NCBI GenBank assembly: GCA_021325515.1
Contig: JAJPHC010000010.1
Span: forward strand, 1-64,000
Source of the DNA: Acidobacteriota bacterium
GTDB taxonomy: Bacteria > Acidobacteriota > Thermoanaerobaculia > Gp7-AA8
Length of the DNA: 64,000 nt
Direction of reading: 5' to 3'
Position numbers and translations under genes: made by a program. This document shows, in pieces, positions 18,999-29,786 of this stretch (the stretch's first letter is position 1; each line of letters starts with the position of its first letter). The notes beneath the pieces were generated by a model. The model was not told the DNA's origin, ran no database searches, and saw nothing but the letters and a program-made list of their open reading frames with translations.

Positions 18999-19502
18999 TC
19001 AGGTTGCGCTGCGCGCGTCCCTGCGCGACGCGATCAATTTCGCCAGCTCCTCGGCATCCAGCCCGTACGTCTCCGGCACGAGCTCGTCGTACTTCGTGGC
19101 GCGCCGGTTCTGCGCGGCTCTCTTCGCGCTTTCCGGCGGCACCTGGCGGTAGTTGAAAGCCACCATGACGTTGCGGCGGAAGAGAATCACGCCGACGTCG
19201 CCGATGTTCGTCCATGGAACGTCGTACTGCCGGAACGTGGTGCGGACGCTGAGCTGGGCCGGCGTCAGGCGAAGGTAATTGCGTCCCGAGGCGAGGTGAA
19301 AGATGGCGAATCCGATGAAGGCGGCGGAGACGAAGAAGGCGACCCAACCCATCGGGTCGTGATCCTTGATCGCCATGACGGGCCCGACCACGACGCCGAG
19401 GGAGAAGAAGAGAATGATGAGAATCCACTTCAGCCGGCTCGGATAGAGGGTGGCCTCCTGCCCTGGATTCAGGCGCAGGGCCGCCAACTCGTTCGCGTCC
19501 AT
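18999..19502 (-). CDS. Two-helix membrane protein with PH-like domain (STM3941-like)
   Basis: The 167-residue protein has a short N-terminus ending LYPSRLKW, two adjacent transmembrane helices (ILIILFFSLGVVVGPVMAI and MGWVAFFVSAAFIGFAIFHLA), then a soluble part reading as beta-strands: YLRLTPAQLSVRTTFRQYDVPWTNIGDV. This layout resembles STM3941-type and other PH-like membrane proteins. The C-terminal segment (DELVPETYGLDAEELAKLIASRR) is helical. It is divergent from the E1 dehydrogenase gene, 57 bp apart. Function is unknown and the family call is by resemblance. Confidence 0.6.
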   Translation of the reverse strand: MDANELAALRLNPGQEATLYPSRLKWILIILFFSLGVVVGPVMAIKDHDPMGWVAFFVSAAFIGFAIFHLASGRNYLRLTPAQLSVRTTFRQYDVPWTNIGDVGVILFRRNVMVAFNYRQVPPESAKRAAQNRRATKYDELVPETYGLDAEELAKLIASRRDARSAT

Positions 19503-19559
19503 GATCCGAGAATCGTAACACCGCCTGTTTTGTTAGGATTCGCCTCCGGAGACTTCCAA

Positions 19560-21962
19560 GTGCCCACACCAGAGCAGACACACGATACCCGTACGCAGTT
19601 CACACGCGAGAGCATCATCGATGACTATCGTGTGGCGTACCGCAGCCGCCAGGCGAGCCTCATCGGCCGGAAAGAGGTTCTCACCGGCAAGGCGAAGTTC
19701 GGCATTTTCGGCGATGGCAAGGAAATCCCGCAGTTGGCGATGGCGCGCGCGTTCCGCAACGGTGATTTTCGCTCCGGCTATTACCGCGATCAGACCTTCA
19801 TGCTCGCCGCAGGTGCGGCGACGCTCGATGAATTTTTCGCGCAGCTCTACGCGGATGCCGATGTGACTCGCGATCCGTGGTCGGCGGGGCGCTCGATGAA
19901 CGCGCACTTCTCCACGCGCTCCCTCGATGCGGATGGGAACTGGAAAGATCTGACGGCCATGAACAACTCATCGGCGGACGGGTCGCCGACGGCGTCGCAG
20001 ATGCCGCGCCTGGTTGGGCTCGCGTGGGCGTCGCGGCTCTATCGCGAGGTGCCGGAGCTGAAGGATCTCTCGAAGTTCACGAGGAACGGCGACGAGATCG
20101 CGTGGGGCACGATCGGCAACGCCAGCTCCGCGGAAGGCATGTTCTGGGAGTCGATCAACGCCGGCGGCGTCCTCGGGATCCCGATGATCGTATCGATCTG
20201 GGATGACGGCTACGGCATCTCGGTGCCGAATGAATTTCAGATCACGAAGGGAAACCTCTCGGAACTGCTCAAGGGTTTCCAGCGCGAACGCGGCTCGAAG
20301 AACGGCTTCGACATCTACACCGTCAAGGCCTGGGACTATCCGGCCCTTTGCGAGACGTATCTCGCGGCGGCGTCGATCGTCCGGATGGAACATGTGCCGG
20401 CGATCATTCACGTCATCGAAGTCACGCAGCCGCAGGGTCATTCGACGTCGGGTTCACACGAGCGCTACAAGTCGAAAGAGCGGCTCGAGTGGGAGATCGA
20501 GTACGACGGCATTCGCAAGATGCGCGAGTGGATGATCGGGCAGGGAATCGCGTCGAGCGAAGAGCTCGATCAGTTCGAGCGCGAGGATCTGCAGGCGGTG
20601 AGGGAAGCCCAGCGGCGCGCGTGGGATGCGTACCGCGCGCCGATCGATGCCGATGTGAAGCGCGCGATCGAATTCATCGACGCGATGGCCGCCGGCTCGC
20701 CGCGCAAGAGCGAGCTCGAAGCGATTCGCAGCGAGCTCGCGCGGACGCAGTCTCCGTTCCGCCGCGATGCGATGCGCGCGCTGACCTCGGCCGTGATCCT
20801 CTCCGGTGGTGATGCCGCGGCAGCAGCGTGGCTGCGTGAGCAGCAGCGCGCCGGCGACGAGCGATATGCACAGCATCTTCACAGCGAAGGCGCGGAGGCG
20901 GCGATCCGTGTGCCGGAGGTGAAGGTCGAGTACGCGGATGACGCGCCGGTGCTGAACGGCTTCGAGATCCTCAATCATTGTTTCGATCACGCATTGCGGC
21001 GCGATCCGCGCGTCATCATCTTCGGTGAGGATGTCGGCAAGCTCGGCGATGTGAATCAGGGCTGCGCGGGACTGCAGGAGAAGTACGGCCTGCTGCGCGT
21101 CAGCGACACCGGCATTCGCGAGACCACCATCATGGGGCAGGCGATCGGTGCCGCGCTGCGCGGTCTCCGTCCGATTGCCGAGATTCAGTATCTCGATTAC
21201 ATCCTCTATGGATTGCAGATCCTGTCGGACGATCTCGCGACGACGCGCTGGCGCTCGGCGGGCGGGCAGAAGTGCCCGGCGATCATCCGCACGCGTGGGC
21301 ATCGGCTCGAGGGCATCTGGCATGCGGGCTCGCCGATGGCCGGCATCATCAGTCTCGTCCGCGGCATGTACGTATGCGTGCCGCGCAACATGACGCAGGC
21401 CGCGGGCTTCTACAACACGCTGCTGCAGGGCGACGATCCAGCGATTGTGGTCGAAGTGCTCAACGGGTATCGCACGAAGGAGAAGCTGCCTTCGAACATC
21501 GACCGCTTCACGCTGCCCCTCGGAGTGCCGGAGGTCGTGCGCGCCGGGAGCGATGTGACGCTGGTGTCGTATGGTGCGACGCTGCGGATCGTGCTCGAGG
21601 CGGCGGAGCTGCTGGCGGCGGTCGGCATCGACGCGGAAGTGATCGATGTGCAGACGCTGCTGCCTTTCGACGTGCGCGGCGTGATCGTCGAGTCGGTGAA
21701 GAAGACGAATCGCGTGGCGTTCATCGACGAGGATGTGCCCGGCGGCGCGACCGCCTACATGCTGCAGCAGGTTCTCGAGCGCGATCATGGTTACGACTGG
21801 CTCGACTCCGAGCCGCTGACGATCCCGGCGAAGGCGCATCGTCCCGCATACGGATCGGACGGCGATTACTGGTCGAAGCCGAACCGCGAATCGATCTTCG
21901 CCGCCATCTACGCCCTGCTGCGCGAAACCAACCCCCGCACCTACCCCGACCTCCTCCGTTAA
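19560..21962 (+). CDS. Fused 2-oxoacid dehydrogenase E1 alpha/beta subunit
   Basis: The 800-residue thiamin-diphosphate enzyme should decarboxylate a 2-oxoacid (branched-chain or pyruvate) and pass the acyl group to an E2 lipoyl protein. Residues ~15-370 match E1 alpha (GYYRDQTFMLAAG, then WGTIGNASSAEGMFWESINAGGVLGIP, WDDGYGIS and THE Q-P-Q-G-H-STSGSHERYKSKERL region). Residues ~455-800 match E1 beta (VIIFGEDVGKLGDVNQGC, RVSDTGIRETTIMGQAIGAAL). The Mg2+-ligand position of the ThDP motif is Asn (TIGNAS), where unfused enzymes have GDG. The GTG start has GGAG at 19548-19551; no upstream Met fits. No E2 or E3 gene is in the window. The stop codon is supplied by the adjoining palindrome. Confidence 0.88.
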   Translation: MPTPEQTHDTRTQFTRESIIDDYRVAYRSRQASLIGRKEVLTGKAKFGIFGDGKEIPQLAMARAFRNGDFRSGYYRDQTFMLAAGAATLDEFFAQLYADADVTRDPWSAGRSMNAHFSTRSLDADGNWKDLTAMNNSSADGSPTASQMPRLVGLAWASRLYREVPELKDLSKFTRNGDEIAWGTIGNASSAEGMFWESINAGGVLGIPMIVSIWDDGYGISVPNEFQITKGNLSELLKGFQRERGSKNGFDIYTVKAWDYPALCETYLAAASIVRMEHVPAIIHVIEVTQPQGHSTSGSHERYKSKERLEWEIEYDGIRKMREWMIGQGIASSEELDQFEREDLQAVREAQRRAWDAYRAPIDADVKRAIEFIDAMAAGSPRKSELEAIRSELARTQSPFRRDAMRALTSAVILSGGDAAAAAWLREQQRAGDERYAQHLHSEGAEAAIRVPEVKVEYADDAPVLNGFEILNHCFDHALRRDPRVIIFGEDVGKLGDVNQGCAGLQEKYGLLRVSDTGIRETTIMGQAIGAALRGLRPIAEIQYLDYILYGLQILSDDLATTRWRSAGGQKCPAIIRTRGHRLEGIWHAGSPMAGIISLVRGMYVCVPRNMTQAAGFYNTLLQGDDPAIVVEVLNGYRTKEKLPSNIDRFTLPLGVPEVVRAGSDVTLVSYGATLRIVLEAAELLAAVGIDAEVIDVQTLLPFDVRGVIVESVKKTNRVAFIDEDVPGGATAYMLQQVLERDHGYDWLDSEPLTIPAKAHRPAYGSDGDYWSKPNRESIFAAIYALLRETNPRTYPDLLR

Positions 21963-23390: not shown

Positions 23391-24047
23391 GTGAAACGAA
23401 TTCTTCTCCTCATTTCGCTGGTCACCGCGATCTCTGCGCCTGCGTTGCGCGCGGAGACGCCGGATCCAATGCTCGGTTCGCTCGCGCAGCAGGCTCCCGG
23501 TCTGAGCACCCAGGTGCTGAGCCTGGCATTGAAGGCGGTACACAAGGCTGCACAAAAAGGCCTCGTGAAACGCGACAACCTGCTGACGGTGATCGACTAT
23601 TCGATTCCGTCGACGCAGCCGCGCCTCTTCGTCTTCGATCTGGCGAGCAAGCGCCTGCTGTTTCGCGAGCTCTGCGCGCACGGGAAGAACAGCGGCGATG
23701 TCAAAACGCAATTCTTCTCCAACGATCCCGGCAGCCTCGCCACCAGCCTCGGGCTCTACGTGACGGAAGACACGTATTACGGCCACAACGGCTATTCACT
23801 TCGTCTGAAGGGGCTCGACGCCGGCTTCAACGATCTTGCGCTCGATCGCGCGATCGTCGTGCATGGCGCGGCGTATGTGAGCCAGGAAGCGATCAAAGCG
23901 CTCGGCCGTCTCGGCCGCAGTTGGGGCTGCCCTGCGGTGCGCCCCGAGATCGCGCAGAAACTGATCGACAGCATCCGCGGCGGCAGCGCGATCTTCGCCT
24001 ATTACCCGGAGAAGGACTGGCTCGATCACTCGGCGTTTCTCCACTAG
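23391..24047 (+). CDS. Murein L,D-transpeptidase catalytic-domain protein
   Basis: The 218-residue protein begins at GTG with a signal peptide (MKRILLLISLVTAISAPALRA) and is expected in the periplasm. The catalytic region includes RAIVVHGAAYVSQEA with the conserved His, then GRSWGCPAVRPEIAQKLIDSI with the nucleophilic Cys in SWGCPAV. This matches the PF13645-type murein L,D-transpeptidase catalytic family rather than classic YkuD. It may crosslink peptidoglycan or attach proteins to it. The GTG is preceded by GCAAACAAGCT and lacks a strong Shine-Dalgarno. It overlaps the convergent fdhD gene by 4 bp at the stop codons. Confidence 0.82.
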   Translation: MKRILLLISLVTAISAPALRAETPDPMLGSLAQQAPGLSTQVLSLALKAVHKAAQKGLVKRDNLLTVIDYSIPSTQPRLFVFDLASKRLLFRELCAHGKNSGDVKTQFFSNDPGSLATSLGLYVTEDTYYGHNGYSLRLKGLDAGFNDLALDRAIVVHGAAYVSQEAIKALGRLGRSWGCPAVRPEIAQKLIDSIRGGSAIFAYYPEKDWLDHSAFLH

Positions 24048-24817
24048 ACGACGCGCTGCTCACCCGAATAGACGTTGTAACGCCCGTCGCGCAGAAATCC
24101 GATCAGCGTGACGTTCATCTCGCGTGCGAGCTCGACCGCCAGTGATGACGGCGCTCCGACCGCGGCGACGATCGGGATTCGTGCGACGACGGCTTTCTGA
24201 ATCAGCTCGAAGCCTGCGCGGCCGCTCAGCATCATGACGGCAGGCGCGGCGCTGGATTCGCGGAGGAGCGACCCGATCACTTTGTCGACCGCGTTGTGCC
24301 GCCCGACGTCTTCGCGGGCCGAGAGCAGTTGACCATCGGCGGTGAAGGCGGCCGCGGCGTGCAGGCCTCCTGTGGCGTCGAACGTCTGCTGCTCCTCGCG
24401 CAGCCGGGCCGGCAATCCGATCAGCGTCTTCGCACTCAGACGCACGTCCGACGCGATGGCGCGGCTCTGCGTGCGAAGCGCGTCGATCGATGTCTTGCCG
24501 CAAACGCCGCACGATGATGTCGCGTAGAAGTGCCGCTGCAGCCTCTGCCAGTCGACACTGATGCCGTCCTTCAACGCGATGCGCACGACGTTGGGCGAGC
24601 CCCAGTGGCGCACCTCCGCGATGTCCGCATGGTTCTTCACGACCGATTCGGTGATGACGAATCCCGTTGCGAGCTCGGCGTCATCGCCCGGAGTGCGCAG
24701 CGTGACGGAGAGCGGACGATCGCCGACGCGAATCTCGAGCGGCTCTTCGACCGCGACTTCATCGCGGGTCTGTTCCGATGTGGATCGGATGATGTCGACG
24801 CGGGTGCTGCGAGTCAT
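24044..24817 (-). CDS. fdhD: Formate dehydrogenase sulfurtransferase FdhD
   Basis: The 257-residue protein transfers sulfur from a cysteine desulfurase to the molybdenum cofactor of formate dehydrogenase. The N-terminal domain has EEPLEIRVGDRPLSVTLRTPGDDAELATGFV. The sulfur-carrying cysteines are in the CxxC of SSCGVCGKTSID near residue 105. The C-terminal part has REDVGRHNAVDKVIG and SGRAGFELIQKAVVARIPIV. An in-frame longer start (24922) overlaps the upstream formate dehydrogenase region; MTRSTRV at 24817 is preferred, with GGAAGGA upstream. It is divergent from the FDH operon it serves. Confidence 0.95.
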   Translation of the reverse strand: MTRSTRVDIIRSTSEQTRDEVAVEEPLEIRVGDRPLSVTLRTPGDDAELATGFVITESVVKNHADIAEVRHWGSPNVVRIALKDGISVDWQRLQRHFYATSSCGVCGKTSIDALRTQSRAIASDVRLSAKTLIGLPARLREEQQTFDATGGLHAAAAFTADGQLLSAREDVGRHNAVDKVIGSLLRESSAAPAVMMLSGRAGFELIQKAVVARIPIVAAVGAPSSLAVELAREMNVTLIGFLRDGRYNVYSGEQRVV

Positions 24818-24924
24818 GAGGAGAGAGATCCTTCCCGTCGAGGCTGAGTCGTGCAAGATGCCTGCGCGGCTGCAAGTGTAGGGCATGCTCCGTTCGACAC
24901 CTTTTTTTGCATACACTCTCACTC

Positions 24925-27900
24925 GTGCTTGCAGAACTGTTGCTGAAGTGGCCGCTCATTCGTCAGCTTCGCGATCGCGCGGACGGCACCGGGCCGGAGT
25001 CGATGACCGGCCGCACGCTCGAGCTCGCCCCGAAAAACGAAGGGGCGAAGAGTGCGCGATCCATCTGTCCCTACTGCGGTGTCGGATGTGGTCAACTTGT
25101 TTACCATCGGGGCGGGAAGGTCGTCTCGATCGAGGGCGACCCGGAGTCTCCCGTTTCGCGCGGCCACCTCTGCCCCAAAGGTGCGGCGAGCTATGAGCTC
25201 GTCACTCATCCGGGACGCGCGAAGAAGGTTCGTTACCGCGCGCCATTCGCACGCGAATGGGTCGACCTCCCGCTGGAGCAGGCGATGGAGATGGTCGCGG
25301 AGCGCGTGTGGGAGACGCGCGCGCGGACCTTCGACCGCACGCACAATCACACGACCGGCATGGCCCACCTCGGCGGCGCCACTCTCGACAACGAAGAGAA
25401 CTACCTCATCAAGAAACTCTTCACAGGAGGTCTGGGCATGGTCTGCATCAGCAACCAGGCCCGGATATGACACAGCTCCACGGTGCCCGGTCTGGGCACC
25501 TCGTTCGGGCGCGGCGGAGCAACGACGGCTCCATCTGATCTGGTGAGTTCCGACGCGATTCTCATCATGGGATCGTCGATGGCGGAGAACCATCCCGTCG
25601 CGTTTCAGTGGGTGATCGAAGCGCGCGAGAAGAACGGCGCGAAGGTCATTCACGTCGATCCGCGCTTCAACCGCACGTCCGCGATGGCGGACTACTGGCT
25701 CCCTCTTCGCGCCGGCAGCGACATCGTCTTCCTCGGCGCGATGATCAACTACGTGCTGGCCAACCAGCGCGAGTTCCGCGAGTATGTCGTTCGCTATACG
25801 AACGCGGCGACGATCCTGAGAGAGGACTTCAAGGACACCGAAGATCTCGGCGGACTCTTCAGCGGATTCGATGGCAGGAAGTACGACCCTGAGTCCTGGC
25901 TCTACCAAGGGGCGGAGAGCAAGCACGTTCCCAAGACCGGCGGCGGGCATGGCAAGGACCGCGGCGGCGAAGCGCAGGACGTCCACCAGCCGATTCGCGA
26001 TGAGACGCTGCAGCACCCGCGCTGCGTCTTCCAGGTGCTGAAGCGCCATTTCGCGCGCTACACGCCGGAGATGGTGGAGCGCAACTGCGGCATTCCGCGC
26101 GAGAAGTTCCTCCAGATCGCGGACATCTTCACCAGCGCTTCGGGCCGCGAGAAGACCGGCGCGATCTGTTACGCAGTCGGCTGGACGCAGCACTCGAGCG
26201 GCGTCCAGACCATCCGCAGTGCCTGCATCCTGCAGCTCCTGCTGGGGAACATCGGACGTCCCGGCGGCGGCATCCTCGCTCTGCGCGGACATGCATCGAT
26301 TCAGGGATCGACGGACATCCCGACGCTCTACGACATTCTCCCCGGCTATCTGCCGATGCCGACGTATGAGGAAAAGGACCTCCGTAACTACATTCAGAAG
26401 CACAAGTCGCCGAAGGGGTGGTGGTACAACCTCGACAAGTACATCGTCTCGCTTCTGAAGGCGTACTACGGCGATGCGGCGGTGGAGAACAACGACTTCG
26501 GCTTCCAGTGGCTGCCGCGTCTTACGGGCGATCATTCGCACTTCGGCTACTGGACCGACATGAAGGACGGCAAGCTGGAAGGTCTGTTCGTGATGGGACA
26601 GAACCCCGCGGTCGGTGCGCCGAACGCGCGTTTCGAGCGCGAGGCACTCGCCCGCTTGAAGTGGCTCGTCGTCCGCGACATGGTCGAAACCGAAACGGCA
26701 ACCTTCTGGCGCGACGACTTCGAGCCGTCCGAGGTGGGAACGGAAGTGTTTTTCTTTCCGGCCGCATCGCACGTGGAAAAGGCGGGGACGTTCACGAACA
26801 CACAGCGCCTGCTGCAATGGCGGGAGAAGGCCGTCGAGCCGCCCGGCGACTGCCGCAGTGAAACGGAGTTCGTGGTTCGCCTCGGGCGCATGCTGAAGGC
26901 CCGCGCGACCGACGATCCTCGCGATGCGGGACTTCGTGCTCTGACCTGGTCTTATGCGGACGACGACAACGATCAGGTCCTGCGCGAGATTCATGGATGG
27001 CACATCGGCGGTGAGCCGCTCAGACACTTTGGCGAATTGAAGAACGACGGCTCGACGGCATGCGGATGCTGGATCTACTCCGGCGTGTATGACGGCGAGA
27101 ACAAGGCGCTGAAGCGCGAGCCGCATGGACGCTACGGTCATGGCTGGGGATACGCGTGGCCGCTCGATCGCCGCATCCTCTACAACCGCGCGTCTGCTGC
27201 ACCTGACGGCTCTCCATGGAGCGAGCGGAAGAAGCTCGTCTGGTGGGACGAGGCGAAAGGCGAGTGGTGCGGCGACGACGTGCCCGACTTCACGCGCGGC
27301 AAACGCCCCGACTACAAAGGCGACGAAGATCGAGGCGGCGACGAAGCGCTGCCCGGCGACGCCCCGTTCATCATGCATCCCGATGGTGCCGGCTGGTTGT
27401 GGGTTCCGTCCGGCCTGAAGGATGGCCCGCTGCCCGCGCATTACGAGCCGCTCGAGTCCAATCTCGAGAACGAGCTGTATCCGCAGCAGAAGACGAATCC
27501 CGTCGCGAACCGGATGGAGCGCCCCGACAATCCGTACGCTGCCTCGCCCGACGAACGATTCCCGTACATCCTGACGACCTACCGGCTCACGGAGCATCAC
27601 ACCGCCGGCGGGATGAGCCGCACGCTGTCGCATCTCGCGGAGCTGCAGCCGGCGCTATTCGCCGAGATCTCGCCGGAGCTCGCGAAGGAAATCGAAGTCG
27701 GGAACGGCGAGTGGATCACCATCTCGACCGCGCGCGGCTCGATCCAGGCGCGTGCGCTCGTGACGCAGCGCATGCCCTCGCTCGATGTGCAGGGCCGCCG
27801 CGTTCACCAGGTCGGCATGCCCTATCACTTCGGGCGCAATGGACTCGTGACGGGAGACATCGTCAACGATCTGCTGGCGATCTCCGAAGAGCCCAACGTG

Positions 27901-27966
27901 AAGATCTTCGAGTCGAAGGCTCTCACCTGCAATGTGACGAAGAGCGACATCTGGCCTGGAGTGTAA
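24925..27966 (+). CDS. fdnG: Formate dehydrogenase catalytic subunit, selenocysteine-containing
   Basis: A molybdopterin formate dehydrogenase read through an in-frame TGA at 25468-25470. The frames before and after are the same; the junction reads NQARI-Sec-HSSTVPGLGTSFGRG, where relatives have Sec. Total length is 1,013 residues. The Fe4S4 site is CPYCGVGC...LCPKG (residues ~50-90). The molybdopterin dinucleotide region is C-terminal (EITIST-like WITISTARGSIQARAL). No twin-arginine motif is visible, so the enzyme may face the cytoplasm. The start is GTG (24925); a TTG at 24907 or ATG at 25003 are alternatives. If Sec decoding fails, a truncated 181-residue product results. Confidence 0.9.
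25468..25500 (+). promoter_or_regulatory. UGA codon and bacterial SECIS hairpin
   Basis: Eleven nucleotides after the TGA, GGTGCCC (25482-25488) pairs perfectly with GGGCACC (25494-25500) around the pentaloop GGTCT. E. coli fdhF and fdnG SECIS stems carry the same AGGUCU-type apical loop, which binds SelB. Stem length, loop and spacing all fit the known bacterial SECIS design. Confidence 0.88.
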
Positions 27967-27969
27967 TGA

Positions 27970-28752
27970 ATGGCGATCACCGGTTTTCTCACGGACTCGA
28001 CGCTCTGCATCGGCTGCAAGGCGTGCGAAGTCGCGTGCAAGGAGTGGAACGAAGTCCCGTCCGACGGCTTCGTCTTCACGGCGCTCTCGTACGACAACAC
28101 CGCGGCTCTCGGCCACTCCACGTGGCGCCATGTGAAGTTCGTCGAGCGCGAGCCGCACGCGGGACACGGCGGCAATTCTCCGTCGCACGTGACGTGGGAG
28201 TTCTCGTCCGATGTCTGCAAGCATTGCGAGAATGCGGGATGCCTGGAGGCCTGTCCGACGGGCTCCATCGTCCGGACCGAATTCGGCGGCGTCTATGTGC
28301 AACCGGATGTGTGCAACGGCTGCGGCTATTGCGTCGTGACGTGCCCGTTCGGCGTCGTCGATCGCCGGCCCGATGACGGCCGCGCGTTCAAGTGCACGTT
28401 CTGTTACGACCGGCAGAAATTCGGAGAGCAGCCGGCGTGTGCGAAGGCGTGTCCCACGAGCTCGATTCTCTTCGGTGATCTCGAGCAGTTGCAGCAGCTC
28501 GCCGATCAGCGCATCGCGAAGCTGCACGGCGAAGGAATGACCGATGCGAAGCTGTATGACGCGCGCGACACCAGCGTCGGCGGCACGCACGCGATGTTCG
28601 TCATCCGCGGCGATGAGCGCGCGTACAACCTTCCGCCGAATCCCGAAGTGCCGACGGTGCATCTGCGCAAGGCGTGGACATCGGCGGCGGTTGCCGCAGG
28701 CGTGATCGCGCTGACGACACTGGCGGCATTCGCGATGGAGCGCCGTTCATGA
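27970..28752 (+). CDS. fdnH: Formate dehydrogenase iron-sulfur subunit
   Basis: The 260-residue electron-transfer subunit carries four Fe4S4 clusters: CIGCKACEVACKEWNE (N-terminal), CKHCENAGCLEACP, CNGCGYCVVTCPFG and CTFCYDRQKFGEQPACAKACP. A C-terminal transmembrane helix (SAAVAAGVIALTTLAAFAME) anchors it. It starts 3 bp after the catalytic subunit stop and ends overlapping the membrane subunit by 4 bp (ATGA), so the three are translationally coupled. It passes electrons from the selenoprotein to the NrfD-like subunit. Confidence 0.93.
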   Translation: MAITGFLTDSTLCIGCKACEVACKEWNEVPSDGFVFTALSYDNTAALGHSTWRHVKFVEREPHAGHGGNSPSHVTWEFSSDVCKHCENAGCLEACPTGSIVRTEFGGVYVQPDVCNGCGYCVVTCPFGVVDRRPDDGRAFKCTFCYDRQKFGEQPACAKACPTSSILFGDLEQLQQLADQRIAKLHGEGMTDAKLYDARDTSVGGTHAMFVIRGDERAYNLPPNPEVPTVHLRKAWTSAAVAAGVIALTTLAAFAMERRS

Positions 28753-29786
28753 AGGAACGCATTCCTACCGCGGCATCGGAAGCACAACTCGAGCAACTGC
28801 GCAAAGAGGCGGAGCTCAACGGGCGCGTCGATCGTCCCGGCATTCGTCCTTCCGGTTCTCCATTTCCGCAGGCGACCGCTGAGAACGGCTACTACGGATT
28901 GCCGCTGCTGAAGCCGCCCGTCTGGACCTGGGAAGTGCCGCTGTATTTCTTCGTCGGAGGTGCCGGCGGTGCTGCGGCGGTCATCGGTTTCACGGCACGC
29001 ATTGCGGGCGCGAGTCCGAAGCTCGTGCGCGATGCACGCTGGGTCGCTGCGGCAGCGGCGAATCTCTCGACTCCGCTGCTGATCGCCGATCTCGGACGGC
29101 CGAAGCGTTTCCTCAACATGCTGCGGATCTTCAAGCCGCAGTCGCCGATGTCCGTCGGCGCCTGGATCGTCGCCGCGTTCGGTGGTGCATCGACTGCCAC
29201 GTTGATCGCGCCACCCGTCCTCGCCGACATCACCGCCGCCGGCTCTGCGGCTCTCGGCCTCGGGATGGCGACCTACACCGGCGTCCTGATCGGAGCGACC
29301 GCGATTCCCGTCTGGTCGCGCCACGCACATCTTCTCCCTGCGCACTTCGGCGCCTCGGCACTCGCATCCGCGGCGTCCACGCTGGAGTTGATGGGCAACG
29401 ATCAGCGTGCGTTGAACCGCCTGGCCATGGGTGCCGCTGCGTTCGAAACGTACATGGGGTTCAACATCGAGCGCCACCGTGAAGACCTCGCCTCGGAGCC
29501 GCTTCGTCACGGCCACAGCGGCAGACTCATTCGCATCGGCGGAACGCTTTCGGGGCCATTGCCGCTCGCGCTTCGGCTGATCGGCGGCAGGTCGAAGCGC
29601 GTGCGCCGCGTCGCGGCATTCGCCTCGCTCGCAGGTTCGCTGATCACGCGCTTCGCGTGGGTCGCAGCAGGGAAGGCGAGCGCGAAAGATCCGCGCGTCC
29701 CGCTGTCATTGCGCGGCGATGGATCGCGTTCCGGAGAGCCGGTCCGGCAGCGAGAAGAGAAATCCGATCCCGCACGTCAGCAGTGA
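28749..29786 (+). CDS. NrfD/PsrC-like membrane subunit of formate dehydrogenase
   Basis: The 345-residue polytopic protein follows the Fe-S subunit with a 4-bp ATGA overlap. It reads GLPLLKPPVWTWEVPLYFFVGGAGGAAAVIGF, a pattern typical of NrfD quinone-interacting subunits, then ~7-8 hydrophobic segments (WIVAAFGGASTATL, LGLGMATYTGVLIG and others). E. coli FDH-N uses a cytochrome b556 subunit instead; no haem-ligand pattern is evident here, so this replaces it. It should transfer electrons to the quinone pool. The last 81 bases overlap the opposite-strand RDD gene, and the C-terminal ~30 residues (SGEPVRQREEK) are not membrane-like. Confidence 0.85.
   Translation: MKERIPTAASEAQLEQLRKEAELNGRVDRPGIRPSGSPFPQATAENGYYGLPLLKPPVWTWEVPLYFFVGGAGGAAAVIGFTARIAGASPKLVRDARWVAAAAANLSTPLLIADLGRPKRFLNMLRIFKPQSPMSVGAWIVAAFGGASTATLIAPPVLADITAAGSAALGLGMATYTGVLIGATAIPVWSRHAHLLPAHFGASALASAASTLELMGNDQRALNRLAMGAAAFETYMGFNIERHREDLASEPLRHGHSGRLIRIGGTLSGPLPLALRLIGGRSKRVRRVAAFASLAGSLITRFAWVAAGKASAKDPRVPLSLRGDGSRSGEPVRQREEKSDPARQQ

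Follow-up and report, generated by a model that had tools for sequence, protein, structure and literature searches.

The window analysed here, a 64-kb stretch (64,000 nucleotides) of an Acidobacteriota genome, almost certainly encodes a selenocysteine (Sec)-containing formate dehydrogenase (FDH) alpha subunit, FdhA, in which Sec would be inserted at an in-frame UGA by means of a downstream hairpin and which would form part of an fdhABC complex. Gene content, conservation of the codon among homologues and covariation within the hairpin, all observed directly, carry this reading.

The fdhA gene and its neighbours

The fdhA gene, for the alpha (molybdopterin) subunit, occupies positions 24925-27966 of the + strand and encodes 1013 amino acids with Sec included. 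It most likely starts at GTG 24925, because close relatives begin with (M/V)LAELLLKWP there, and stops at 27966. The sole interruption of this frame is a TGA at 25468-25470 (context ...CISNQARI-U-HSSTVPGLGTSF...), which is read as Sec, residue 182, in the motif NQARI-U-HSS, from the comparison of homologue codons. The read-through protein scores 1514.7 bits against NF041513 and 916.3 bits against TIGR01553, exceeding the curated cut-offs of 1400 and 814.2 respectively, and has the three domains expected of a molybdopterin enzyme (Molybdop_Fe4S4, Molybdopterin and Molydop_binding). The ratio dN/dS is about 0.2 on both sides of the UGA (three relatives compared) and protein conservation carries on past it; by this sequence measure FdhA is under purifying selection both upstream and downstream of the TGA.

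The original prediction held that gene callers would split this gene in two, and the ORF lister indeed broke it at the UGA, giving ORFs at 24907-25470 and 25483-27966. The further claim that a real selenoprotein is thereby hidden stands as far as the selenoprotein is concerned, but the hiding is overstated: the NCBIfam models recognise the read-through protein, which belongs to the best-known bacterial selenoprotein family. On the opposite strand a 904-aa open frame (24919-27633, - strand) runs antisense to fdhA and stays open across the whole UGA and SECIS region; it is without a Pfam match and was treated as a GC-rich shadow, not as a real gene.

Downstream on the + strand lies fdhB (27970-28752), for an Fe-S subunit with 4Fe-4S dicluster domains (Fer4_11, 78.5 bits; TIGR01582, 200.8 bits, below the cut-off of 334.7), followed by fdhC, for an NrfD-like membrane subunit (NrfD_2, 50.5 bits; NrfD, 40.6 bits). 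The ORF listed for fdhC spans 28674-29786, and its true start is probably ATG 28749, which overlaps the fdhB stop (junction sequence GCCGTTCATGAAGGAACG). Divergent to fdhA, on the - strand, is fdhD (24044-24922), for the sulfurtransferase of FDH maturation (NF001943, 298.6 bits; TIGR00129, 165 bits; both above cut-off). Elsewhere in the window, at 19296-21962 on the + strand, a single 888-aa chain combines an alpha-like with a beta-like half of 2-oxoacid dehydrogenase E1, its NCBIfam matches being below the curated cut-offs.

The SECIS hairpin

The perfect stem-loop proposed in the original prediction was confirmed to the base. It lies at 25482-25500 on the + strand and consists of GGTGCCC (25482-25488), the loop GGTCT (25489-25493) and GGGCACC (25494-25500), i.e. 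a perfect 7-bp stem, GGUGCCC/GGGCACC, closing the loop GGUCU. It begins 11 nt after the UGA, so that the spacer from UGA to loop is 18 nt (25471-25488), and the folding energy of the 19-base stem-loop is -13.4 kcal/mol. The bacterial SECIS constraints used are those of the published model/consensus quoted in PMC13188914, namely an apical loop of 3-9 nt on an upper stem of 4-16 bp, G at loop positions 1 and 2 and then usually G or U, 16-37 nt from the UGA to the apical loop, and a minimum free energy of -7.5 kcal/mol or lower. The fdhA hairpin agrees with all four, having a 5-nt loop on a 7-bp stem, GGUCU, 18 nt and -13.4 kcal/mol.

Folding energy was not taken as proof of the hairpin, because the 43-nt stretch, taken on its own, has an unremarkable folding z-score (-0.71), and energy by itself does not single the hairpin out. 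When synonymous codons were resampled from fdhA, a perfect 7-bp stem arose here in 8% of trials and a stem together with an RGUYU loop in just 0.6%. The + strand of the window has no other hairpin with 7 bp and an RGUYU loop, and an Rfam search of the window gave no match at the gathering thresholds. With a covariance model of the hairpin the only significant match in the source genome was this site (E 1.5e-12), the next having an E of 0.19, and thus no further SECIS of this class was found there. The decisive evidence for the hairpin is comparative: in the sequences of relatives its offset and loop are conserved and its stem covaries.

Sec and Cys forms of the homologues

The TGA at 25468 had been placed at the position where FDHs carry Sec or Cys, and it is both in frame and aligned there: among 69 non-redundant homologues the codon is TGA in 62 and a Cys codon (TGC/TGT) in 7, and the codon that follows is CAC or CAT (His) in all 69. 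The same offset carries an RGUYU loop in 61 of the 62 TGA forms and in none of the seven Cys forms (Fisher p = 7e-9, which is indicative only, the sequences being related, the sample uneven and relatedness uncorrected for); the comparison of Sec and Cys FDHs suggested in the original prediction thus places the loop with the Sec forms alone. At the loop position the Cys forms have a similar peptide, V-x-G/A-L-G, in different codons, and therefore the protein sequence does not explain the RGUYU loop.

Across 50 distinct TGA sequences, 95.1% of the stem pairs are standard and four of the seven pairs have changed on both sides, whereas sliding the partner by 1-3 columns as a control leaves 39-55% paired (52-55% for one column). 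The hairpins of relatives have seven continuous pairs without a bulge, except that the lowest pair is often lost. Left out of the covariation alignment was a distant homologue (39% identity) from Desulfatitalea sp. BRH_c12 (L056), which has TGA at the same codon and lacks a hairpin at the offset seen here; if it has a SECIS at all, the element must be differently placed or shaped.

Within the same family, orthologues from genomes that were assembled separately have one TGA, at the same codon, and the full-length ones are 76-80% identical; the same holds for the TGA in every same-order and same-class orthologue readable there. Beyond Acidobacteriota the closest sequences share about 55-57% identity, most of them belonging to Actinomycetota or to bins of myxobacterial or deltaproteobacterial origin.

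Sec-decoding genes

The source genome is a 63-contig assembly, 99.84% complete by tool estimate, in which the sel genes were searched family by family. The original prediction expected selA, selB, selC and selD, and saw in a lack of selC or selB an argument against Sec; all four genes were found, scattered on separate contigs. The tRNA-Sec (selC, contig C9) has anticodon TCA and scores 69.8 bits, SelB (C54) scores 373.6 bits, above the curated cut-off, with its winged-helix C-terminus present, and selA (C36) and selD (C2) score 473.6 and 375.8 bits. On C10 a second tRNA-Sec match above cut-off (48.4 bits) proved to be a tRNA-Ser, its anticodon being TGA. The second-best SelB match (C4, 200.7 bits), which falls short of the cut-off, has a length of 399 aa and lies near a 713-aa translation-factor match, was taken to be EF-Tu and not SelB.

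The selD gene has an in-frame UGA of its own (L018 1521-1580), in the motif GGUACK, followed by a candidate hairpin, TGGGTC-AGGAT-GACCTG, with 16 nt from UGA to loop. Because of this UGA and hairpin the genome appears to have at least two selenoprotein genes, selD being the second, as a candidate. It is a different protein on a different contig from fdhA and serves as supporting evidence only.

The presence of selA and selB was surveyed in 17 outside genomes, 11 sampled for the Sec form, five for the Cys form and one holding both. Both genes are present in 11/11 Sec-form genomes, in 0/5 Cys-form genomes and in the one genome with both forms. This last, the sixth Cys genome, is that of Paenarthrobacter sp. 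DKR-5 (G061; L105, L106), in which two similarly related FDH copies occur, a Cys form (L037) and a form with an in-frame TGA. The Cys copy keeps 6/7 of the stem pairs, but the loop is gone (GGGCT), as in a remnant of a SECIS.

Alternative readings of the UGA

In a draft assembly, and with Cys forms of the enzyme in existence, a TGA might be a sequencing or assembly error for TGC or TGT, or a genuine nonsense mutation in an enzyme of the Cys type. We regard this as so improbable as to be negligible: TGA stands at the same codon in every readable orthologue within the family, the order and the class, the hairpin resembles that of Sec forms and not Cys forms, purifying selection persists beyond the TGA, and the genome has a full sel set. 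As independent relatives in separately assembled genomes share the TGA, the sequencing error at 25468-25470 that the original prediction had raised is excluded for practical purposes. Equally hard to credit is SelB-independent decoding of the UGA as another amino acid, such as Cys or Trp, whether by genome recoding or by a suppressor tRNA. The inserted residue cannot be told from an in-frame UGA as such; however, this genome has a true tRNA-Sec and SelB, its other genes are normal under table 11, and the RGUYU hairpin accompanies TGA forms only.

The two listed ORFs would also fit a UGA that ends a short protein, or a downstream part made separately from GTG 25483, so that two polypeptides result. 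This is very improbable, given that the break lands within one enzyme, at its active-site residue, that GTG 25483 sits within the hairpin, and that the compared homologues keep the UGA or have it swapped only for Cys codons.

Proposed mechanism and relation to known systems

With the UGA read as Sec, insertion of the residue, its metal ligation and the catalytic direction of the enzyme would be those of the characterised families. SelA, with selenophosphate from SelD, would form Sec-tRNA(UCA), and SelB would bind the hairpin at 25482-25500 and bring this tRNA to ribosomes at UGA 25468. Sec would be expected to act as ligand at the Mo/W bis-pterin site, in a complex of catalytic, Fe-S and NrfD-like membrane subunits (fdhABC) for which FdhD would act as maturation factor.

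The protein resembles the FDHs of NF041513 (formate_DH_Act) and TIGR01553 (FDH-N alpha) in its full-length match, in Sec at the Mo-ligand position, in a similar beta subunit and in having FdhD nearby, but by reading of its N-terminus it is without a twin-arginine signal. The locus also differs from FDH-N in its NrfD-like membrane subunit, the gamma subunit of FDH-N being a cytochrome b.

The likeness to the E. coli SECIS claimed in the original prediction applies to the loop and its distance, since in fdhF the UGA is likewise followed by 18 nt and then GGUCU, an identical offset; it does not extend to the stem. The fdhF stem, GGUUGCA/GCACCAA, is not a perfect 7-bp one, whereas the window hairpin has seven continuous pairs and no bulge. 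In the E. coli SECIS a bulged U is needed by E. coli SelB for binding. It is possible, though rather doubtful, that in this FDH branch, whose hairpins have an unbroken stem and an RGUYU loop and lack the bulged U, SelB recognises the element in another way than in the E. coli pair, with the result that the two are not interchangeable.

The finding of a Sec-containing FdhA is well founded but ordinary: among bacterial selenoproteins this kind is the commonest, FdhA being the most widespread of them (PMC5029168, PMC13188914; 822 organisms in PMC5029168). Sec/Cys switches, including Sec-to-Cys, are known in the FDH alpha subunit (PMC1794560), and a Sec-using acidobacterium has already been listed (PMC12013277). 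One gene annotation is corrected by the analysis: genes of this kind ought to be predicted as a single full-length protein. The sequence comparisons point to Sec use in this Acidobacteriota family. The comparison of Sec and Cys forms is a clean natural control, in which loop and stem go with the UGA, and repeats established knowledge.

The family motif is listed as UHxP (PMC13188914), which is typical, not obligatory, and is not matched by the UHSS of the window FdhA; close homologues have UHS- or UHSA-. We take the difference to be one between subfamilies, because the curated models accept the protein regardless. Many genomes of the same class have a different Sec-FDH (L080-L092), about 45% identical, with the motif UHGP and the hairpin GGTGGCC-AGTYT-GGCCGCC, and in some genomes from the family (G004, G013) the two kinds occur together.
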